DNA of 64,000 bases, from assembly GCF_030849025.1 (NCBI RefSeq), contig NZ_CP118224.1, positions 852,001 to 916,000 on the forward strand. The letters are read 5' to 3'. The translations under genes and the position numbers were made by a program. The first letter of the stretch is position 1. Each line of letters begins with the position of its first letter. Below, one piece after another: positions 17,251-51,796 of the stretch. The DNA comes from Oceanimonas pelagia. Lineage in GTDB: Bacteria > Pseudomonadota > Gammaproteobacteria > Enterobacterales > Aeromonadaceae. The notes beneath the pieces are model-generated. The model ran no database searches and was not told where the DNA came from. It saw only the letters and a program-made list of their open reading frames with translations.

Positions 17251-17784
17251 TCAAAGTCCCATTTTTTCTATCATCGCCTCGGGCCCGCCGGGCAGGCCGC
17301 TTTGCTGAAACAGAAGGCGGCCCTGTTCGTCCAGGGCGGTGACGGTATTGGCGTGAGCGATCTCGCCGCCGGCCAGCGCGGCGTATTTGATGCCGACCGC
17401 CATGGCCAGGGTGCGCACCTGATCGTCGTTGCCGCTGAGCAGGGTCCAGTGAGCGTCAAGCCGGTGCTTGCCGGCGAAGTGTGCCATCACTTTGGGGGTA
17501 TCTACTCCCGGAGTGAGCGATATCAGCACAAAGCCGAGTTGCTGCTGCTGGGCCGGCGTCAGCGCCTGCTGAATACGTTTGAGATCCGATACGATCACCG
17601 GGCAGGCGGTGGCACAGTCGGTGTATATAAAGGCCAGCAGCCGTTTTTTTCCCGCCAGGGTGTCCATCTTCACCTCGCGTTCATGGCGGTTCTGCCAGGT
17701 ATCGTTCAGCAGGTAGAGCGAATCGTCGGGCAGCCCGAGGGCATTAAGGCTGAACAGCATCAGCCACCAGGTGAGGTGTTTCAT
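17251..17784 (-). CDS. SCO1/SenC-family copper chaperone
   Basis: A 177-aa protein with a short signal sequence and a thioredoxin-like fold. The copper ligands of the family are present: C57 and C61 in the CxxxC motif (CATAC) and H144 in EIAHANTV. SCO proteins deliver copper or reduce thiols for CuA sites. As the third gene after nirK and nirV, it probably helps load copper into NirK or a partner. Its start overlaps the nirV 3' end by 41 bases, implying co-translation. Confidence 0.88.
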   Translation of the reverse strand: MKHLTWWLMLFSLNALGLPDDSLYLLNDTWQNRHEREVKMDTLAGKKRLLAFIYTDCATACPVIVSDLKRIQQALTPAQQQQLGFVLISLTPGVDTPKVMAHFAGKHRLDAHWTLLSGNDDQVRTLAMAVGIKYAALAGGEIAHANTVTALDEQGRLLFQQSGLPGGPEAMIEKMGL

Positions 17785-43762: not shown

Positions 43763-44784
43763 CCCTGAAAACCAAAGTGATTCTCGACCGGCCCCTGCAC
43801 GCGCCAGAGGATGAGCCCCTGCGCCCCGGGCAGGCCCTTGACGATAACGACTTTCTGCAGGCCGAGGCCAAGGCCACCGGGCCGATGGCGGCGCTGCGCC
43901 CCCGGCGCCGGCACCGGCTGTGGAGAGCGGCGCTCGGTCTGATGCTGGGGTTGCTGCTGGTGCATTCCGGCCTGTCGTTGTGGCAGACCTGGCAGCACAG
44001 CCAGTGGCTGGGGGCGGCCTGGAGCCTGGCGCTGGCGTTGCTGGCGCTGGCCGCCGGCAGCAGTCTGTGGCGTGAAGCCAGGCAACTGCGCCGGCTGGAG
44101 CGGGTCTGTGCCCAGCGGGCCCGGGCCGAGCAGTTACTGGCCGAGGCCGGTCATGGCCGGGCGCGGGGGTTTTGTGAACGGCTGGCGTGCCAGAGCGGGC
44201 TGGAGCACAGCGATGCCTTTGCCCACTGGCGGGCCGGCCTGACCGGTGACGAGCAGGATGGTGAGGTGCTCGCTCTTTACAGCCGGCAGGTGCTGGCCGT
44301 GCAGGACCGCCAGGCCCGGGCCAGGGTGCTGAAATGGTCCGGCGAGGCGGCGGTGATGGTGGCGGCCAGCCCCCTGGCGGCGGTGGACATGCTGCTGGTG
44401 CTGTGGCGCAACCTGAAAATGATCGAGGACATCAGCCAATGTTACGGCATTCGCCTGGGGGCGCTCAGCCGGCTGCGGCTGCTGAAAAGCGTGCTGCACC
44501 ACATGCTTTATGTGGGGGGGTCGGAAGCGGCCATCGACGCCGGCATGGACTTGCTGGGGCTGGAGCTGGCCGGGCGGCTGTCGGCCCGGGCCGGGCAGGG
44601 CGTGGGCGCCGGCCTGCTCACCGCGCGTCTCGGCCTGCAGACCATGGATCTGTGCCGGCCGGTGCCCTGGCAGGGCGACGAGAAAAAGCAGCTGGGCGGC
44701 ATACGGCGCGCGCTGATTGACAGAGTGGTGAAACTGCTGAGTAAAAACAGGGAACCGGGAGATCGGGAGCAGGGAGTGGGGTGA
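43759..44784 (+). CDS. ycjF: YcjF-like inner-membrane protein (DUF697)
   Basis: A 341-aa TIGR01620/YcjF protein with two membrane helices near 55-100 and the conserved late region WSGEAAVMVAASPLAAVDMLL (split) and CYGIRLGALSRLRLLKSV. Oddity: the last 13 codons lie in a period-7 G-rich repeat (44748-44782), giving the tail KNREPGDREQGVG, and the stop overlaps the 3' end of the opposite-strand tRNA-His by 8 bases. The tail is probably repeat-derived rather than ancestral. Confidence 0.92.
   Translation: MTLKTKVILDRPLHAPEDEPLRPGQALDDNDFLQAEAKATGPMAALRPRRRHRLWRAALGLMLGLLLVHSGLSLWQTWQHSQWLGAAWSLALALLALAAGSSLWREARQLRRLERVCAQRARAEQLLAEAGHGRARGFCERLACQSGLEHSDAFAHWRAGLTGDEQDGEVLALYSRQVLAVQDRQARARVLKWSGEAAVMVAASPLAAVDMLLVLWRNLKMIEDISQCYGIRLGALSRLRLLKSVLHHMLYVGGSEAAIDAGMDLLGLELAGRLSARAGQGVGAGLLTARLGLQTMDLCRPVPWQGDEKKQLGGIRRALIDRVVKLLSKNREPGDREQGVG
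44748..44782 (+). repeat. Period-7 G-rich repeat at the ycjF 3' end
   Basis: CAGGGAA CCGGGAG ATCGGGAG CAGGGAG TGGGG: the same CAGGGA-type unit as at 10391 and 13036, with one 8-base step. It is translated as part of ycjF. Confidence 0.7.
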
Positions 44785-44853
44785 CCGACGGGGCTCGAAC
44801 CCGCGACAACCGGAATCACAATCCGGGACTCTACCAACTGAGCTACGGTCACC
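44777..44853 (-). tRNA. tRNA-His (GTG)
   Basis: A complete 77-nt tRNA, including the extra G-1 typical of tRNA-His and an encoded CCA. Anticodon stem-loop CCGGATTGTGATTCCGG with anticodon GTG; T-arm GGGTTCGAGCCC. It was probably transcribed with tRNA-Arg(TCT) before the 6.9-kb element separated them; now only element sequence lies upstream. Confidence 0.95.
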
Positions 44854-44856
44854 ACT

Positions 44857-44873
44857 AAATGGCGCGCCCTGCA
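44857..44873. other. Left attachment core (displaced tRNA-Arg 3' end)
   Basis: AAATGGCGCGCCCTGCA is identical to 51717-51733, the 3' end of tRNA-Arg(TCT). It is part of a longer 62-base repeat (44812-44873). This copy lacks the rest of tRNA-Arg, as expected for the host fragment pushed away by integration. Confidence 0.75.
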
Positions 44874-45238
44874 AAAGGGGTAACCTGTGGCTGATGTTAA
44901 AACATCAGAAATATCAGTCACTTGGATAAATGGTGTGGCTGATACGGGGGCGTATTTTAAGCAGCTATGTAACCTTCTGCAAGCACTTTTGATACTTACG
45001 ATCTTGGGTGGTGCTTGTTGGCTAAAAGATCAACGCTGTGGCGGGAGACCTGTCAGGCGGACGGACTTTTGTTACTGAGTGTCCCTTGTATAACATAGAA
45101 ATATCTTAAGGTTTTGATTAATAGGTTCTTTTAGAGCGCTCCATACTGCCAAAGATCAATGAAACAGGCATTCTAACCACAAGGTAATGGGTAGGGCAGG
45201 GGTATGCTTTAGAATGGCAGGGAGAGCCGTTTAGAGGC
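44874..45238. other. Left-end region of the element
   Basis: 365 bases without a confident gene. It holds TGTGGCTGAT twice (44886 and 44935), TGTAACCTT at 44969, and the hairpin CTGATGTT/AACATCAG at about 44892-44909. These look like attachment-site architecture. An open frame at 44887-45078 (GTG start, AAGGGG upstream, one hydrophobic stretch) would encode 63 aa; I give it low weight because it overlaps these repeats. Confidence 0.45.
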
Positions 45239-45436
45239 CTATAAGCTTATGACTTTTTTACAGCTTTCATAGTGTTTGATGGTGATTACATGCTGTTTGC
45301 TGGCGCTGCTCATGGAGTAAACACAATACTTCACCTGCTCGACCACATACTCACCCCGTAACAACATCGTAGTGGCATAGGCTGATGGGGCAGCCAGTAC
45401 CCCACATAGCAACAACATTAAATAAACAGATTTCAT
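45239..45436 (-). CDS. Small secreted protein of the element
   Basis: A 65-aa protein with a clear signal peptide (MKSVYLMLLLCGVLAAPSAYA), leaving a mature part of about 44 residues with two cysteines (YCVYSM and ESCKKV) that could form a disulphide. I do not recognise it. Its ATG overlaps the resolvase stop by 4 bases, so it is translationally coupled to the resolvase. Confidence 0.6.
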   Translation of the reverse strand: MKSVYLMLLLCGVLAAPSAYATTMLLRGEYVVEQVKYCVYSMSSASKQHVITIKHYESCKKVISL

Positions 45437-46056
45437 GCTTCTGTCTCCTTCATCTGTTTGGCTACTTTGGCGACAGTGGCTCTTGAGCAACCCAATAACG
45501 CAATAACCTTGTTGTAGCTTTTCCCGTCTGACAGTAATTCTTTGACCTTGCCATGAAGCACCATATCAACGGGGCGACCTTTGTATCCACCTTCAGCCTT
45601 CTTTTTGGCAATACCTTGTGCCTGTCTTCTGCGTCTGTCTTCATAGTCCTTACGGGCAATGGCAGTCAACATATCCAACATCATGCCGTTCAGGGCTTCC
45701 AGCATTCGGCTGGTGAACTCATCTCCTGACTTGATAAGCTGGTGGCTTGTCGGTAAGTCCAGAGCAACTACACGGATTCCTTTACTCTCAATCGTGGATC
45801 TTAACGCCTTCCAGTCATTGGCGTTCAACCGGCTCAGGCGGTCTACCTGTTCCACCAGCAGCACATCACCTGCTTGGGCAACATCCAGCAATCGGAACAG
45901 CTCAGGGCGTTTCAGACTGGCACCAGATTCATTCTCTATAAACCATGCTGACACGGTTAATCTTTGAGCTTGTACGAAATCAATCAACTGCTCTTTGGCA
46001 CGGCTGGCATCCTGCTCATTGGTTGACGCTCTCAGGTAGGCATACACACGGTTCAT
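45433..46056 (-). CDS. Serine recombinase (resolvase/invertase family)
   Basis: A 207-aa small serine recombinase. The catalytic domain begins VYAYLRASTNEQDASRAKEQL with the nucleophilic serine in RAST, then EQVDRLSRLNANDWKALR with the DRLSR motif. The long helix E and a C-terminal HTH (GKSYNKVIALLGCSRATVAK, split) follow. I start at the ATG at 46056 with GGTGA upstream; another ATG 12 bases earlier is possible. In the element it may resolve dimers or invert a segment; a res-like site would lie in the gap upstream. Confidence 0.88.
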   Translation of the reverse strand: MNRVYAYLRASTNEQDASRAKEQLIDFVQAQRLTVSAWFIENESGASLKRPELFRLLDVAQAGDVLLVEQVDRLSRLNANDWKALRSTIESKGIRVVALDLPTSHQLIKSGDEFTSRMLEALNGMMLDMLTAIARKDYEDRRRRQAQGIAKKKAEGGYKGRPVDMVLHGKVKELLSDGKSYNKVIALLGCSRATVAKVAKQMKETEA

Positions 46057-46867
46057 CTGAATCACCATAGTCTGTTTTAATTGGTTTAATAATAGTGGTC
46101 TGCTTTGGGTTTGTAAAGATGTATTAGTGAACCAATAAACAAGAGGTGTTGTGTAGTCTGATTTGTGTATACCCAATGTAAACCAGCGCCAGCAGGCGAT
46201 AGTCATAGCCAGGCACGGGAAGCCTGAGGCAGAGGGGATACCACACACGAACTGAATTGATTAATAGTAATTTTTATATATTAAAAAATATTGATATCAA
46301 GAGGGCGCTTTGTTAAGCAAAACGTGTTGTATATAAATTTTCATATCCTTCAATCCTTTACTATCACTGTATTTCCCTCCATTAGCATGTCAGTATTGTT
46401 TGTTTTTTTAATGTAGCTCATTGATTTATATGGTTTATTATTGATATATTTAAACCTTGTTTATTATGTTGTTGACACTTTCGGCTGTGCGTAGTGTAGT
46501 TGTGACACTTTTTATGTATAAAGCTATTACATATTTAGTGTCATTTTTTCAATGGTTCATATAGAGGCTAAGCATTACTCACTAAAACACAGTTCGTAAT
46601 ACTACCCTCTAACATCACTACTATCAGACTACCTACAACAAACAGACGTTGTAGCTAACCTTGATAGAGTGCTGTATGAATAATATGGAGTAAGAGAGCG
46701 AAACAAAGCAACTCACTACGTTCATTGCTGTTGTCCGCTCCCTAACAACAATTAACGAAACACATATCACCTTCCTCATTATCATTCGTTGGTGCAATGG
46801 TTTCTATTGTTGTGTTGGTAGGGCTAAAGCCCCTCTATAAAAGAACAGTGGCGCATAGCCGCCGGTG
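46057..46867. other. 811-bp AT-rich non-coding region of the element
   Basis: No supported gene on either strand. Visible structure: TGACACTT at 46473 and 46503 (30 bases apart) and its inverse AGTGTCA at 46537; a nested inverted repeat at 46621-46667 (CTATCA...CTACAAC...GTTGTAG...TGATAG); very AT-rich stretches at 46260-46470; a GGGC/GCCC hairpin at about 46828. It could hold a replication origin, a res site, a regulatory RNA or phage-responsive promoters. The sequence alone does not decide. Confidence 0.5.
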
Positions 46868-48364
46868 TCAGGCTTGCAGGTGGCTGGTTGGGATGTTCCT
46901 TTTGTTCATCCAGTTAATACACTGCTCAAGTGAGTCAATGTTGTTCTTGCTCTTCCAGGATTTAAAGGCATTGTGATGTTCTGGAGGGATACCAAGCCAT
47001 TTGGCAGTCAGCTTGAACTCCCCGGACTGCAGGTGCTGCTGACGCTCATATTGTTCTTGTTGCAGCTTCACCTTATTCCCGTCAATAGCAAAATCCTTCA
47101 CCAGCTCAGCGCCTTTAAAGTGACCATTAAGCAGGTAGTTTGCTGCCCGCTCGTCCGGCACGATAACAACATAAGTGGTGTCTGAATCTTCATGATTACG
47201 GATTATTCCCCGAGTGGCAGCCTGGAAGATTGGCTCGTGGTATATCTGGTTTATCATTCCATGCTCTAATAATTGCAGGTTTATTCCATGCTTATCAGCT
47301 ATCTCATTGCATTCAGCTTTCTGTAAGTTATCCAGGTTAGCCTGATATATACAAATCACAGCTTCATAGCTTACAAGGTCATTCCTTCCGTGTGGGTTAT
47401 AGGGTACAAAGTTAGCTTGTCCGTAATCCCACTTTTCATTTTCTTGATTACTGTTAACGGTATAGATAAATCTGTCCTTTCCGTAGTGCTTCAGGGCTGC
47501 TCCGGCATTAATCCGCATCTGTTGATAGACTGTGAACCCATCGGGCTTGTAGTTACCATTAACGTCTAATGTCAGCACTCGATTACCATCTACACATCTG
47601 TTTCTGCTGTAGTTGATGCCAGTGAGTAGGGGAATTACCTTGGTTCGTTTAGGGTTGTTGTAAGCACTGTATTTTGGTTTTATATCATTGCTTGGTACGA
47701 ATACTGCTCCCTGAGCCTTCATTAGCTCTGTAGTCGCCAGCCCTTCCACCTGAGCCGCCAGCATGTAAATACTGTCTGCATGTTGCAGATGCTCCACCCA
47801 ATTGAACACCACAGACCAACGGAACTCATTGTCACCCATCCGTGTTACAGTGCTACCCAGCTCTAAAGCCGTTAACATGCTTTCCATCTTCTCTGACCGT
47901 GTACCTTGTGCTTTGATTGCTTCAATACCGTCATTCCCGTGGTCAGGATGAAGAGTGTACTTGCAGCCGTCTATGTTGCAGCAGTTCCCCAAAATATTGA
48001 GAATGTCGGTTGTATCCTTCACGGGGATAGAACCCAAGTTAATTGTGCTCGGCACTTCATCAATGATGACCGTGTACCCGTGCAAGAGGGTAGGATCAAT
48101 CTTCATAAACCCTTGATGGCAACAGACAATAACGCTAACTTTATTTCTTAGGTTTTGCTCAATCTGAGCACCAACACGACTGTTACCTGTAGTGTTAGAT
48201 ACAGCAATGGCTTTAGATCGTGTAATTTTGTTGAAAGTCTGATCTGCCAGCTTTTGTCCTATGTTTACAATTATGAACTTATCTTGGCTATTGTTGACAA
48301 GCTCAATTACTTCATGGGTCTTGCCTCCAGCGGGAATAGCGGTTACGGTTTTGATTTCAGTCAT
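46868..48364 (-). CDS. SF2-helicase-like ATPase
   Basis: A 498-aa cytosolic protein I cannot name. A P-loop is at the very N-terminus (AIPAGGKT, residues 9-16); Walker B is YTVIIDEVPS (D102-E103); a motif VI-like QAATRGIIR is at 381-389. This order fits a superfamily 2 helicase core as seen in phage and plasmid genes. The middle (about 130-350) and the C-terminal basic tail (KWLGIPPEHHNAFKSWKSKN) have no family I recognise. It may unwind DNA for element replication or act with the neighbouring nuclease. The ATG has AAAGGAG 13 bases upstream. Confidence 0.7.
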   Translation of the reverse strand: MTEIKTVTAIPAGGKTHEVIELVNNSQDKFIIVNIGQKLADQTFNKITRSKAIAVSNTTGNSRVGAQIEQNLRNKVSVIVCCHQGFMKIDPTLLHGYTVIIDEVPSTINLGSIPVKDTTDILNILGNCCNIDGCKYTLHPDHGNDGIEAIKAQGTRSEKMESMLTALELGSTVTRMGDNEFRWSVVFNWVEHLQHADSIYMLAAQVEGLATTELMKAQGAVFVPSNDIKPKYSAYNNPKRTKVIPLLTGINYSRNRCVDGNRVLTLDVNGNYKPDGFTVYQQMRINAGAALKHYGKDRFIYTVNSNQENEKWDYGQANFVPYNPHGRNDLVSYEAVICIYQANLDNLQKAECNEIADKHGINLQLLEHGMINQIYHEPIFQAATRGIIRNHEDSDTTYVVIVPDERAANYLLNGHFKGAELVKDFAIDGNKVKLQQEQYERQQHLQSGEFKLTAKWLGIPPEHHNAFKSWKSKNNIDSLEQCINWMNKRNIPTSHLQA

Positions 48365-48366
48365 AG

Positions 48367-48471
48367 TTATATGTTTTCTCCTTTGTTGTTGAAAGCCACA
48401 TACGCAAAAAAGCAAAAGAGGGCCGCCACCGTAAGGTGGTTGCCTCTAATGCTGAACAGGATTATGCGCAT
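48367..48471 (-). CDS. Possible 34-aa leader peptide
   Basis: ATG at 48471, TAA at 48367, ending 2 bases before the helicase ATG. The peptide is hydrophobic (LTVAALFCFFAYVAF in its middle). No good ribosome site precedes it. It spans a terminator-like hairpin, so it may be a leader of an attenuator or simply chance. Confidence 0.25.
   Translation of the reverse strand: MRIILFSIRGNHLTVAALFCFFAYVAFNNKGENI
48405..48446 (-). terminator. Hairpin plus T-run in the helicase leader
   Basis: Leftward reading gives GAGGC-AA-CCACC-TTAC-GGTGG-CG-GCCCTC followed by TTTTGCTTTTTT. It lies between a good -10 (TATAAT near 48490) and the helicase start. It can end the upstream transcript or attenuate the helicase message. 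Confidence 0.6.
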
Positions 48472-48564
48472 TGTGGAGAGGTACGGAATTATACCCCTGT
48501 TTTCATTGTTGCCCGGTTTCCTTATTGAGTCAATATTTTTTTGTGGTTTTCATTGAATGAATTT

Positions 48565-49563
48565 TCAATCTTCATCAAGCTCCACATCATCAAACGATTG
48601 CAACGCTTCGATAAAGCCATCTTCTTGAAAAAGATAAACACCGGTTTGCTCGGCTAACTCAATGGCAGAGTCCGTAAAAAATGAGTTGGTAACTACAAAG
48701 GCCATGCCGGCATTGTAAAACTGTTGTGCTGATAAGGCTTCCTGTACTGCCTTGTTGCCAACCTTTGAAGTGTAGTATTTGGCTTGAACAATGGCTGTTA
48801 TATCCTGGTAAGTGATTATGAGATCTGCCCCTTGATCACCTGACCCTCTGGTTACTTCAGCAGTCCATGAGGTTTCCTCATTAACTCTTGTGGAAAGGTG
48901 GAACTCATAATCGTGTCCTGACATTGGAACTTCGTTATTGGCCTCTTCTGAAGTAGCTACGGCATCAATATAGTTGTCTATCATGTCGCAATATTCAGAC
49001 ATGCCTTCACAATCATGAACAAGATAATGATAGCTAAGGCTAATAAATTCAAAGTCGTCACGCCGATTGATAGAGTATAAGTACTCTCTTAGTTCACTGG
49101 TTTTCTCATAAAAAGAAAATAGTGGAATATCTATTTTCTCTTTAAAGTATTTATTTAACTCCTTTTGCCACTTGTCAAACTTATAATCACCATATTCATC
49201 TTTGTATATCAGTCTGTTTTGTTTTTGTGCTAATACGTTATGGTGCTCTTCAATTTTAGGCTGTATGACCTCTTTGAACGCGATTGCGTTATATATTCTT
49301 GATCCAATGAATATTTGATCGTTTATTATGTTTTCAGTTTTCACGAATTCGTAGAGCTCATCTCGGCTCTTTATTTTTAAAAACTCTTTGACGTCATTCA
49401 TGTGTTTGTGAAAAAACTGAAGTGGGAATGCGAGTTCAGCGTTGTACTTTTTTATCAATGTAAGCATTTCGTAGAGCTCTTCTACTTGTGCTTCCGCAAT
49501 GTTTGCTTCTTTTCTTTCTTTTATTTTTCTTAAAATTGATCCGATCATTTCTAAAGTGCTCAT
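48565..49563 (-). CDS. Mrr-type restriction endonuclease-domain protein
   Basis: A 332-aa protein. The C-terminal Mrr_cat-like PD-(D/E)XK domain is clear: GSGDQGADLIITY with D247, then AIVQAKYYTSKVGNKAVQEAL with Q260-x-K262, and VVTNSFFTDSAIELAEQTGV. The N-terminal 200 residues are helical, charged and unrecognised, perhaps a target-sensing module. Mrr nucleases are type IV enzymes cutting modified DNA, but Mrr-like domains also serve other defence systems. No methyltransferase is nearby. The gene lies between the zinc-ribbon gene (19 bases upstream) and the helicase leader. Confidence 0.85.
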   Translation of the reverse strand: MSTLEMIGSILRKIKERKEANIAEAQVEELYEMLTLIKKYNAELAFPLQFFHKHMNDVKEFLKIKSRDELYEFVKTENIINDQIFIGSRIYNAIAFKEVIQPKIEEHHNVLAQKQNRLIYKDEYGDYKFDKWQKELNKYFKEKIDIPLFSFYEKTSELREYLYSINRRDDFEFISLSYHYLVHDCEGMSEYCDMIDNYIDAVATSEEANNEVPMSGHDYEFHLSTRVNEETSWTAEVTRGSGDQGADLIITYQDITAIVQAKYYTSKVGNKAVQEALSAQQFYNAGMAFVVTNSFFTDSAIELAEQTGVYLFQEDGFIEALQSFDDVELDED

Positions 49564-49582
49564 GTTAGTTAGGTTTGAAAAA

Positions 49583-50206
49583 TTACATTATTGAACAATC
49601 TCTAGCAATAACATTCATCATCAGGCCGTCAATACGGCATGCAACTGTCAGGTTGCTACCTTTGTTTAGTCTGCTTAATTCACTGTTGGTGCTGTCGTCG
49701 AACATGGCTTGCAGCTCTGGGATCTGAAATTGAGCTCCTGTGCCAAGCGTGACATATGAGGTGCCCATGATATCTTTCTTTATGCTGCTGATGATGCCTC
49801 TTGTCATTATTATTCTATCTTTATATCGTGCATCAGCACCTATTTCATTGTTTTCGTAGTCTGATAACAGTTTCTCAATGCTTACATTGAGTGCTATCTC
49901 TTGGCTTGAGTTATCTTCATGATGTGAACTGGTTTCTATATAGTAATCAACACCATCTTCTGCTAATCCAATTCCCATAGTGAGGGCAAGCCAAGTAAAG
50001 GCTGTCACTTTCGCTTTTTTGGTGTGCCCTTTTCGTAAGGTAAACCAAGAGAAAATGATTGGTAAAAGGAATATTCCTAAGCCCAACAAAACACCAACTG
50101 ACCTTTTGGGCGGGTCCTGGTTGTCATTTGGTCTGCCACAGTGCGGGCAGGTTGCGGCGGAAGTAGATATATCATTGCCACAATCAGAGCATTTGATGAT
50201 TGCCAT
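49583..50206 (-). CDS. Zinc-ribbon membrane protein with OB-fold-like domain
   Basis: A 207-aa protein. The N-terminal zinc ribbon has C6-x2-C9 and C20-x2-C23 (CSDCG, CPHCGRPN). Two hydrophobic segments follow (about 36-58 and 66-82). The C-terminal part resembles the tRNA_anti-like OB fold: DARYKDRIIMTRGIISSI, then SYVTLGTGAQFQI and GSNLTVACRIDGLM. Function unknown; as a membrane partner 19 bases upstream of the Mrr nuclease it could be a sensor or effector of one system. Similar proteins also occur alone. Confidence 0.75.
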   Translation of the reverse strand: MAIIKCSDCGNDISTSAATCPHCGRPNDNQDPPKRSVGVLLGLGIFLLPIIFSWFTLRKGHTKKAKVTAFTWLALTMGIGLAEDGVDYYIETSSHHEDNSSQEIALNVSIEKLLSDYENNEIGADARYKDRIIMTRGIISSIKKDIMGTSYVTLGTGAQFQIPELQAMFDDSTNSELSRLNKGSNLTVACRIDGLMMNVIARDCSIM

Positions 50207-50349
50207 TTTTTATCCCTTTGTGTTTTTAGTTTTTAACTTGCCATGTCTTCTGGTGTTGCATATGGAAAGCATATGGTAAGGCACCATGTTGATCGATAGC
50301 AGGTTATGCACAAAAAAGAAACCACATGAGTCTGAAATCTATACGACAA

Positions 50350-51570
50350 TCACGTCTTTTTCTGCTCGTGCCGGTGCATCCGCGCCAGCACATGGTGCAG
50401 GTATTCCAGGCTTCTGCCTTTGCCGTAGTGGTGGATCATGCCTTCACGGCTCCAGCCCATCAGGCTGACGATTTCCATTTCCGTTGCTCCCGACTCTATC
50501 AGCCGGCTATTCAGGCTGTGGCGAAAGCTGTGGCTGGTGCCCTGTTCAACCACGCCAGACAGGAACTTGTTTACCGCTTGAGAGCAGCCGTCACCCTTGA
50601 ACTTGCCGTCCTTGATATAACGGGGAAAGGCGTGTTTCTGTTCTGGTTGTGCTGCTGCTTTTACAATGCTGGCGAATTCCAGGCTGATGCCGGTAAGGGG
50701 GATTAACCGTTCGCTGTTGTCGTTCTTCAGGCCTCGTTGATCATGGGGTTTGATTACAAGGTGAGGAATGGGGGCGTCCAGTTTGATATCGTCCAGCAGC
50801 AAGCCGCCTATCTCGGCGTTTCTGCAACCGGTGTCGTAGAGCAGGCCCACAATCTGGGCGGTGACCAGTGCCGACTTTCTTCTGATCGTCTCCCGTACCT
50901 TCAGCAACTCGTCTGCCTCGAAGGTGTGACGTTTTTCAGCGTCTTTCTTGATGTTGTCGAAGGGGACGCCGGCAAAGGGGTTGCTAATGTTCAGATCGTG
51001 CAGTTGCAGGGTTAACCGGACTTGTCTGCTGATAAACCCAACGGCTTTTTTGATGGTGGCGGTTTTGAGCTGCTGCTCTGTCTTGAGGCGTTCAACCACT
51101 ATCAGCACGTCACGCTTTTTGATATGGGCAAGGATAGGGGGGAGATCTGCAAAGTATCCAAAGCAGCGGGTGATCTCGGTCGTTTTCTTTTTGTTGCCTT
51201 GATGGGCCTTCAGGGCATGGTGCTTGATGTCGTTCAGGGTAATGGTGTGCTGCTCTGGTGCTGGCGTGGGAACCAGCTCGGCAGGAGGAGGGCTTGCCGG
51301 TTGAATGATAAGCACGGGGGAGGGGGTGACGTTATGCTTTAACTGCTCAAATTCCTTGTTGTGCTGCAAGGCCAGTGCTTGGGCTTGTTGGGATGCCTGG
51401 TTCAGGTCTTTGGTCTTGAGGGAGAACACCAGTTCACGCTTGCCGTTGTAGTGGCGGCGTAGTGGAGCGGGGACGGCCCGGCGGTAGTAGAACAGGCCGG
51501 TGGTGCTGCGTTGTTGCAGGTAGGATACGGAGACGGTAAAAGCCCCGATTTTGAATGTAGCTTGTGGCAT
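50350..51570 (-). CDS. int: Tyrosine-type site-specific integrase
   Basis: A 406-aa phage-type integrase. The arm-binding/SAM-like N-terminal part (about 1-190) precedes the catalytic domain. Catalytic residues: R in DTGCRNAEIGG, H347 and R350 in SHSFRHSLN, and nucleophile Y382 in MIHHYGKG. I use the ATG at 51570, with GAGG 7 bases upstream, instead of the in-frame GTG at 51582. It reads away from tRNA-Arg and is the closest gene to the right attachment site. Confidence 0.93.
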   Translation of the reverse strand: MPQATFKIGAFTVSVSYLQQRSTTGLFYYRRAVPAPLRRHYNGKRELVFSLKTKDLNQASQQAQALALQHNKEFEQLKHNVTPSPVLIIQPASPPPAELVPTPAPEQHTITLNDIKHHALKAHQGNKKKTTEITRCFGYFADLPPILAHIKKRDVLIVVERLKTEQQLKTATIKKAVGFISRQVRLTLQLHDLNISNPFAGVPFDNIKKDAEKRHTFEADELLKVRETIRRKSALVTAQIVGLLYDTGCRNAEIGGLLLDDIKLDAPIPHLVIKPHDQRGLKNDNSERLIPLTGISLEFASIVKAAAQPEQKHAFPRYIKDGKFKGDGCSQAVNKFLSGVVEQGTSHSFRHSLNSRLIESGATEMEIVSLMGWSREGMIHHYGKGRSLEYLHHVLARMHRHEQKKT

Positions 51571-51644
51571 CGTATACCTCACGAATCAACCACAAGTTAC
51601 ATAGGGCTTGTAACCTTTTTTGTAACCACAGCTCTTGGTGTTGG

Positions 51645-51713
51645 GGAATCACAATCCGGGAAATAACAGCGTTTTCAAGCTGTTACTACTCTACCAACTG
51701 AGCTACGGTCACC
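51645..51713 (-). pseudogene. tRNA-His 5'-half remnant with a 27-base insertion
   Basis: The acceptor 5' strand, D-arm and anticodon arm of tRNA-His are present (51688-51713 and 51645-51660), but a 27-base segment (51661-51687) splits them and there is no T-arm. The insert folds as TAACAGC-8 nt-GCTGTTA. The element appears to have carried this copy with its attachment site; the intact gene is at 44777. Confidence 0.8.
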
Positions 51714-51716
51714 ACA

Positions 51717-51733
51717 AAATGGCGCGCCCTGCA
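51717..51733. other. Right attachment core inside tRNA-Arg
   Basis: Identical to 44857-44873. It contains the CCA end and 3' acceptor strand of tRNA-Arg, so integration left the tRNA intact. Confidence 0.75.
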
Positions 51734-51796
51734 GGACTCGAACCTGCGACCATCCGCTTAGAAGGCGGATGCTCTATCCAGCTGAGCTAAGGGCGC
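51720..51796 (-). tRNA. tRNA-Arg (TCT)
   Basis: A complete 77-nt tRNA with encoded CCA. Acceptor GCGCCCT/AGGGCGC, anticodon loop CTTCTAA with anticodon TCT, T-arm CAGGTTCGAGTCCTG. It reads the rare AGA/AGG arginine codons. Its 3' end is the insertion site of the neighbouring element. Confidence 0.95.

Follow-up and report, generated by a model that had tools for sequence, protein, structure and literature searches.

The stretch of DNA analysed here, called the window, comprises 64,000 nucleotides of a contig from the marine bacterium Oceanimonas pelagia (NZ_CP118224.1, positions 852,001 to 916,000). Between its tRNA-Arg(tct) and tRNA-His genes lies a 6.9-kb element whose six genes, all on the minus strand, encode a tyrosine integrase, a protein combining a zinc ribbon, a transmembrane segment and an oligonucleotide/oligosaccharide-binding (OB) fold (ZnR below), an Mrr-type nuclease, a superfamily 2 (SF2) helicase, a serine recombinase and a 65-residue secreted-type protein. 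A preliminary description, made from the sequence itself, had noted the integrase beside tRNA-Arg, the six same-strand genes and an AT-rich interior, all of which we could confirm; the GC content in windows of 1 kb is 0.36–0.55 inside the element and 0.59–0.70 outside it. The serine recombinase, left unnamed in that description, proved to be a plasmid-type resolvase. Elements at the same site were found in two further Oceanimonas genomes, G003 (a different species) and G014, and the features of the locus are the following.

44777–44852, minus strand: tRNA-His (gtg), intact, beyond the left end of the element (ARAGORN)
44828–44873: left copy of the 46-bp end repeat, made of the first 25 nt of tRNA-His, the spacer and the tRNA-Arg 3' end (repeat search, 98%)
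45239–45436, minus strand: 65-aa small protein with a signal-peptide-like N-terminus (by eye), its start codon overlapping the resolvase stop; in all three elements
45433–46056, minus strand: serine recombinase, plasmid-type resolvase (Resolvase PF00239, 7.6e-23); in all three elements
46057–46867: non-coding stretch that separates resolvase from helicase, a candidate origin region (811 bp), with the res-like site at its resolvase-proximal end
46070–46172, minus strand: res-like stretch (GTATA ... AGAC-N3-TATWWTTRAACCA-N3-AAAACAGAC), upstream of the resolvase gene
46473–46479: third half-site, TGACACT, 25–30 bp from the dyad (start to start) in the three elements
46503–46543: 41-bp dyad TGACACT-N3-TATGTA-N9-TACATA-N3-AGTGTCA, with outer arms TGACACT/AGTGTCA and inner arms TATGTA/TACATA
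46868–48364, minus strand: SF2 helicase of the phrog_2467 family (Walker A GGKT, DEVP, Q-R-R motif)
48534–50165: exchangeable cargo block (most of ZnR plus Mrr), no blastn homology to the G003 element
48565–49563, minus strand: Mrr-type nuclease (Mrr_cat PF04471, 2e-18; GSGDQGAD...VQAK)
49583–50206, minus strand: ZnR, with zinc ribbon, hydrophobic segment (by eye) and OB-fold (tRNA_anti-like, PF12869, 5.2e-19)
50350–51582, minus strand: tyrosine integrase (DUF6538 PF20172, 6.5e-16; Phage_integrase PF00589, 2e-14)
51665–51684, minus strand: hairpin AACAGC-N8-GCTGTT inside the tRNA-His fragment at the integrase end, with the same sequence in each of the three elements
51688–51733: right copy of the 46-bp end repeat (repeat search)
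51720–51796, minus strand: tRNA-Arg (tct), intact, at the integrase end (ARAGORN)

The 17-base exact repeat of the tRNA-Arg 3' end, reported earlier as marking both edges, is present at 44857–44873 and 51717–51733, but it is only one end of a 46-bp repeat (44828–44873 and 51688–51733, 45/46 identical with a single mismatch) that takes in the spacer and, by the ARAGORN bounds, the first 25 nt of tRNA-His. In the same way, the tRNA-Arg edge had been recognized correctly, but the element actually sits between tRNA-Arg and an intact tRNA-His gene, a second identical copy of which was found elsewhere in the strain by a whole-genome search. An additional 17-bp exact match (44812–44828 and 51645–51661) is separated from the repeat, in the right copy, by the insertion of the hairpin. 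The integrase end has the same makeup in all three elements (window 51645–51733; G003 locus L005, 5890–5975; G014 locus L006, about 17440–17540), namely a 5' tRNA-His fragment followed by the identical 20-nt hairpin. Within each genome, the spacer and the tRNA-His fragment are near-identical at both ends of the element, while differing from genome to genome. The gene adjoining tRNA-Arg at the integrase end is presumably folD-like.

To survey the insertion site, we searched 75 genomes of the family for a junction pattern consisting of the tRNA-Arg end, at most 30 bases and the start of tRNA-His. The pattern was matched in 15 genomes, all belonging to the 23 members of the genus, and in 13 of these the site is empty, with the tRNA-Arg end followed by 6–7 bases and a whole tRNA-His; ARAGORN calls both tRNA genes in 12 of the 13, and in the last one (L021) the contig begins within tRNA-Arg. 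The other two matched genomes are carriers, namely O. pelagia and G003. The third carrier, G014, escaped the pattern through single-base changes in both tRNA genes, so that the survey covers the 15 matched genomes and G014 among the 23 genus members. Integrase matches at E ≤ 1e-40 occur in 3 of the 75 family genomes, exactly the carriers, and helicase matches at E ≤ 1e-100 single out the same three among 61 relatives, where the only other match (four in all) was a weak one in G036 (6.1e-5). Among plasmids, the integrase gave four weak records only.

No structural, packaging, conjugation or methylase family was found by profile searches among the six proteins, nor among nine short or re-cut open reading frames of the non-coding stretches and the left end, in keeping with what had been proposed from the sequence alone. 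AlpA/HTH_17 had no match in either set, and a DUF3987/DUF5906 primase none in the six proteins. The 65-residue protein (61 residues as first cut) weakly matches phrog_4641 (7.3e-5). In an Rfam scan the curated score was reached by the two tRNAs only, YrlA-like and Plastid-ycf2 matches at the tRNA-Arg end falling below it; promoter and terminator scans gave results at chance level. A literature search turned up no description of the element. The profile searches, the end repeats and the empty sites agree with the view that this is a small integrative element and not an ordinary prophage or integrative conjugative element. By this comparison of genomes, it is a real one, placed between tRNA-Arg and tRNA-His, which both remain whole, and equipped with a dedicated integrase.

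The three elements share the tyrosine integrase, the N-terminus of ZnR, the SF2 helicase, the serine recombinase and a secreted-type protein of 64–65 residues, their helicases being 79% (G003) and 56% (G014) identical to that of O. pelagia. From tRNA-Arg to window position 50166, the O. pelagia and G003 elements are 96.8% identical in DNA (blastn); no homology is detected between 50165 and 48534, and from 48533 onward the identity is 87%. The swapped block corresponds to the ZnR body and the entire Mrr gene, in place of which G003 has a different ZnR tail and a 403-residue protein lacking Pfam or PHROG matches at E ≤ 0.01. Accordingly distributed are the protein identities, which for integrase and ZnR are 0.97 and 0.37 against G003, and 0.77 and 0.60 against G014. 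Mrr is present in one of the three elements and in 1 of the 75 family genomes. Among four tested cargo proteins of G003 and G014, none matched a structural family and one matched phrog_29597 (unknown function, 4.5e-19). Because of the three-element comparison, the swapped block and the rarity of Mrr, we assign the helicase, on sequence grounds, to the backbone and Mrr to the cargo, with ZnR as a backbone position whose content is exchangeable.

The helicase genes of the window (46960–48460) and of G003 (L005) are a mosaic of blocks that are 97–100% and 65–81% identical, which suggests recombination among such elements. Near its helicase end, the non-coding stretch reaches 99% identity with the G003 element; given the mosaic helicase genes, this likeness may be due to recombination in addition to constraint. 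Seven short open reading frames listed in the stretch gave no Pfam match above the cut-off, and there was no Rfam match in it.

The resolvase is 68–71% (about 70%) identical to its best plasmid matches among those listed, which are "recombinase family" proteins of 5.5–5.9 kb Klebsiella plasmids. Upstream of its gene, the res-like DNA of the three elements aligns with that of all four enterobacterial small plasmids aligned; a GTATA (GTATAC in six of the seven rows) and the AGAC-N3-TATWWTTRAACCA-N3-AAAACAGAC block are common to all. Resolvase and site would make up a plasmid-type maintenance module, and they point to a circular, multiplying stage, since multimer resolution would be pointless for a purely chromosomal island. 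Two viral contigs (L106 and L107) encode resolvases about 60% identical to the one described here.

The dyad lies in the same non-coding stretch. In G003 the 41 bp are identical. In G014 the 41-bp dyad (L006, 9697–9737) differs by two compensatory changes in its outer arms and, in the inner arms, by one that is unpaired; it keeps the AAA...AAA polarity and the third half-site and, together with the latter, is inverted relative to the genes. There it comes after the stop codon of the helicase gene, whose last codons contain the third half-site. Allowing up to two mismatches, the pattern has a single occurrence in each of 3 of the 75 family genomes, and these are precisely the carriers. With up to three mismatches, it was absent from 100 shuffles of the window, a descriptive figure as the pattern derives from this very site, and no dyad of equal strictness arose in 2000 mononucleotide shuffles of the non-coding stretch. 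It was found neither in the searched stretches of helicase-bearing prophage-like loci (L007, L066, L067, L082 and L083) nor in the viral contigs. We considered whether the dyad might be the res site of the resolvase and rejected this, because six plasmids encoding a related resolvase do not contain it (the best match has nine mismatches in each, as against 5–9 for the best match in a single mononucleotide shuffle of each) and a different, res-like stretch aligns in four of them. An origin or an operator are the live options.

The helicase matches phrog_2467 over nearly its full length (residues 2–473, 2.6e-58), and G-K-T, the first acidic residue of the DExx box and Q-R-R are invariant in an 18-sequence alignment. 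By tblastn, relatives occur in 207 phage records. Among the 30 listed, identity is 23–27% and the hosts include Aeromonas, Escherichia, Cronobacter, Enterobacter and others; the three records opened are Straboviridae (T4-like), in which the helicase is one of 279–376 annotated features. In Aeh1 and phiAS5 the phrog_2467 gene adjoins the late sigma factor gene 55, and Aeh1 ORF031c aligns at full length with the helicase (94% covered, 24.9% identity). An AlphaFold2 model from the 18 sequences reached a pLDDT (predicted local distance difference test) of 82. With Foldseek, its nearest neighbors in the PDB were SF2 helicases, foremost XPD and DinG (template-modelling, TM, score 0.42–0.49 in the top five), while BFVD returned phage proteins with TM up to 0.70, including the named helicase-like proteins of Atu_ph07 and phiRSL1. 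A sequence search of solved structures with the helicase profile gave nothing at E ≤ 0.1.

More distant members of phrog_2467 occur in two other genomes of the bacterial family (G034, 9.4e-32; G036, 1.5e-23) and in two viral contigs. In G034 the gene is flanked by tape-measure and distal-tail genes, and the viral contig that was opened shows the same setting. Searched with the helicase profile, 394 genomes of the order gave five matches, namely O. pelagia itself, G003, G034, G036 and G151, G014 not being among the rows shown as matching. The G151 protein (BLASTP with the O. pelagia helicase, 3e-7; against phrog_2467, 6.9e-38), when itself searched in 295 genomes, matched G151 alone. With the phrog_2467 profile, 112 of 369 genomes of the class matched at E ≤ 0.001, as did 5 of 14 control genomes; O. 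pelagia scored 8.8e-59 and every other match 2.4e-9 or weaker. Many of the weak matches are short and N-terminal, in open frames of about 670 or 1,150 residues, by their length presumably UvrB and Mfd; being weak and also present in controls, such matches were taken as generic SF2 similarity and not as family members. The G034 helicase gave four partial, weak plasmid records. A search of genome contigs with the helicase alignment, from which records near the window may have been left out, returned only an O. marisflavi locus.

Some of these loci deserve description in their own right. In two prophage-like loci (L066, 3265–15302; L082, 4286–15375), a helicase relative is flanked by tape-measure and distal-tail genes, which is not where one would usually find a replication gene. 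The G036 locus (L007, 2149–9463) has its helicase relative near genes for a PAAR protein, a TseH-like type VI effector, a CI-like repressor and a serine recombinase. In G151 (L067, 3065–16536), about 13.5 kb lie between exact 15-bp repeats, which could be due to chance, just past a pseudouridine-synthase gene; this stretch encodes a 559-residue integrase, the phrog_2467 helicase, a major capsid protein E and few other recognizable phage genes, and is possibly a capsid-carrying satellite.

As for the cargo, the Mrr protein keeps the D..QxK motif, which we take to be the Mrr catalytic signature, and on sequence would fit a type IV Mrr restriction nuclease. Relatives occur in 216 plasmid records; among the 20 rows listed, they are 29–35% identical and cover about residues 100–326. 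The N-terminus, described earlier as unrecognized, turned out to have counterparts in two solitary plasmid Mrr proteins of 319–321 residues, whose alignment reaches the start weakly, at 27% identity overall. Phages gave six records, limited to the catalytic part, and viral contigs a single one. A structure model of Mrr (pLDDT 39) was discarded. ZnR matches phrog_8545, "superinfection exclusion Sie-like", at 8.6e-16; zinc-ribbon models fell just below their cut-offs. Neither ZnR (at E ≤ 1) nor the Mrr profile (at E ≤ 0.1) matched any solved structure in sequence searches. The two genes, separated by 19 bp, may form a two-gene cargo, and an anti-phage role is likely; no second ZnR-Mrr pair was seen in the few contexts inspected, no systematic search having been made.

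Taken together, we lean somewhat toward reading the element as a minimal integrative replicon, that is, an integrating-plasmid-like element and possibly a phage satellite. Such a replicon would be excised as a circle by the integrase; the helicase would drive copying by host or phage enzymes, the dyad probably serving as origin or operator, and the resolvase would reduce multimers to monomers. Having neither packaging nor conjugation genes, the element would depend on a helper for transfer. Its slot flanked by integrase and helicase would carry exchangeable genes, here the ZnR membrane protein, of a superinfection-exclusion-like family, and the Mrr nuclease, most likely for protection from competing phages.

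Several observations weigh against this reading. The window helicase matched no plasmid record, no known replication-protein (Rep), primase or iteron family was found in the element, and the one link of the helicase to a Rep is a weak CyRepA1 match (4.1e-4) far below the cut-off; its replication role is our own supposition. In two Vibrio plasmids whose resolvase is related, the DNA upstream of the gene is different, and these were not included in the res alignment. Such elements may often be inactive, one carrier (G014) having an integrase split across two frames and inserted transposase genes (DDE_3, 3.6e-33); the two end repeats of each genome, being nearly identical to each other, may also reflect a long, vertical and inactive residence. 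Moreover, the replicon reading is drawn from assembled genomes, in which no free circle of the element was seen. A more specific version, which we put forward tentatively and would not expect to hold in full, is a new Oceanimonas lineage in which a helicase shared with T4-like phages acts at the 41-bp dyad and is joined to a captured plasmid resolvase and a swappable anti-phage slot; this would be a plasmid/satellite hybrid, whose helper could be a T4-like phage.

The main rival, compatible with our observations, is a life as a phage-packaged satellite. In its strict, PICMI-like form, a virulent (perhaps T4-like) phage would trigger excision, the helicase would boost copying, the helper would package concatemers and the cargo would protect the host against other phages. 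The preliminary description had suggested a phage satellite with a replication unit, and this is plausible insofar as the helicase family is phage-borne and travels with an integrase, the replication part being conjecture. Beyond the T4-like phage records, a distant helicase relative lies in the G151 element with its capsid gene, and the published account of PICMI115, as far as consulted, gives a similar scale (six genes, 6,110), with an integrase, a replication gene and a defence slot (PMC10803314). However, AlpA, primase and fis site were not found, a resolvase would run counter to a packaged-concatemer life, and scans of viral contigs for helicase and dyad gave no packaged form. We regard the strict satellite as rather unlikely. 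Less probable still is the degeneration of a former prophage or larger island down to an integrase, a helicase and morons. Helicase relatives do stand among tail genes in prophage-like loci, the sole phage record found for ZnR is a Klebsiella prophage, in which the gene is alone and on the strand opposite to its neighbors, and G014 is visibly decaying; yet two species (O. pelagia and G003) keep the five-gene backbone, matching ends, the dyad and the res-like DNA, and no structural family appeared in the six proteins or in the four cargo proteins tested.

The idea, also raised in the preliminary description, that helicase, Mrr and ZnR together make up a single new defence system fared worst, and we consider it highly improbable. 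The genes are adjacent and on the same strand, Mrr resembles the C-terminus of ZorD (1.5e-10) in addition to weaker nuclease models, and ZnR is like superinfection-exclusion proteins. However, the set does not recur at this site: the helicase is in all three elements, two of which lack Mrr, and the cargo boundary lies between Mrr and helicase. The ZnR body and Mrr are exchanged as a block between elements with 97% identical integrases, and from this, together with the occurrence of Mrr in one element of three, we conclude that the three proteins are not one defence machine. Relatives of the cargo proteins are solitary in the three contexts inspected, Mrr as a single gene in two plasmids and ZnR in the phage record, which is the outcome that the preliminary description had itself named as speaking against a module. 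PADLOC called no defence system and had no match for the helicase; of Zorya (the ZorA and ZorB motor and a full ZorD), ZorA and ZorB had no match, and only the C-terminal Mrr-like part of ZorD was matched.

If the replicon reading holds, the phage helicase family phrog_2467, still listed as of unknown function, gains a testable role in small-replicon replication and a defined 41-bp DNA target on which to test it. The element is one more case in which integrative plasmids and phage satellites are hard to tell apart, and its cargo slot offers a definite site in which to search for new defence genes, with the caveat that adjacent genes in such an island need not form one system.

Among known systems, the three T4-like phages opened carry a phrog_2467 gene as one of many, with no role assigned to it, whereas here it is the sole replication-like gene. 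The cyanobacterial plasmid Rep CyRepA, which the helicase resembles in a weak profile match, uses a DEXDc helicase domain as Rep according to the part of its description consulted, but the DUF3854 (primase-like) domain was not detected in our helicase (PMC10079941). Similarly, AbiP and PdpSau of abortive infection resemble ZnR by description in having a membrane segment and an OB-like domain in a prophage or defence setting, as outlined in the source, whereas ZnR has an N-terminal zinc ribbon (PMC10127798). Islands that jumbo phages mobilize from a site downstream of tmRNA share a tyrosine integrase, direct repeats, defence cargo and a lack of self-transfer genes, but differ in their tmRNA site, as far as the summary of that work goes (PMC12595487). 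PICMI elements of Vibrionaceae are alike in size (about 6 kb), in having six genes, with an integrase, one replication gene and an exchangeable defence slot, and in lacking capsid-remodelling genes; of the four features required by their model, as quoted in the source, the present element has the integrase (PF00589, 2e-14) and not AlpA, the DUF3987/DUF5906 primase or the fis site, and it carries the helicase and resolvase instead (PMC10803314). The Pseudomonas aeruginosa integrative plasmid pHS87b is small and phage-related, with a tRNA-gene integrase and an attachment repeat (11.2 kb; 45 bp), and its replication gene is unknown; it differs in its P4-type integrase, its tRNA-Thr site and its capsid and TOPRIM genes, and neither an SF2 helicase nor a resolvase, both present here, is named for it in the part of the account drawn upon (PMC4739549). 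The integrative-plasmid features found in O. pelagia are an integrase with attachment repeats at a tRNA gene and, by homology, a plasmid-type multimer-resolution module. The element appears to be a new variant of the small integrative plasmid/satellite type; pHS87b comes nearest to it in build, PICMI in size and general plan.

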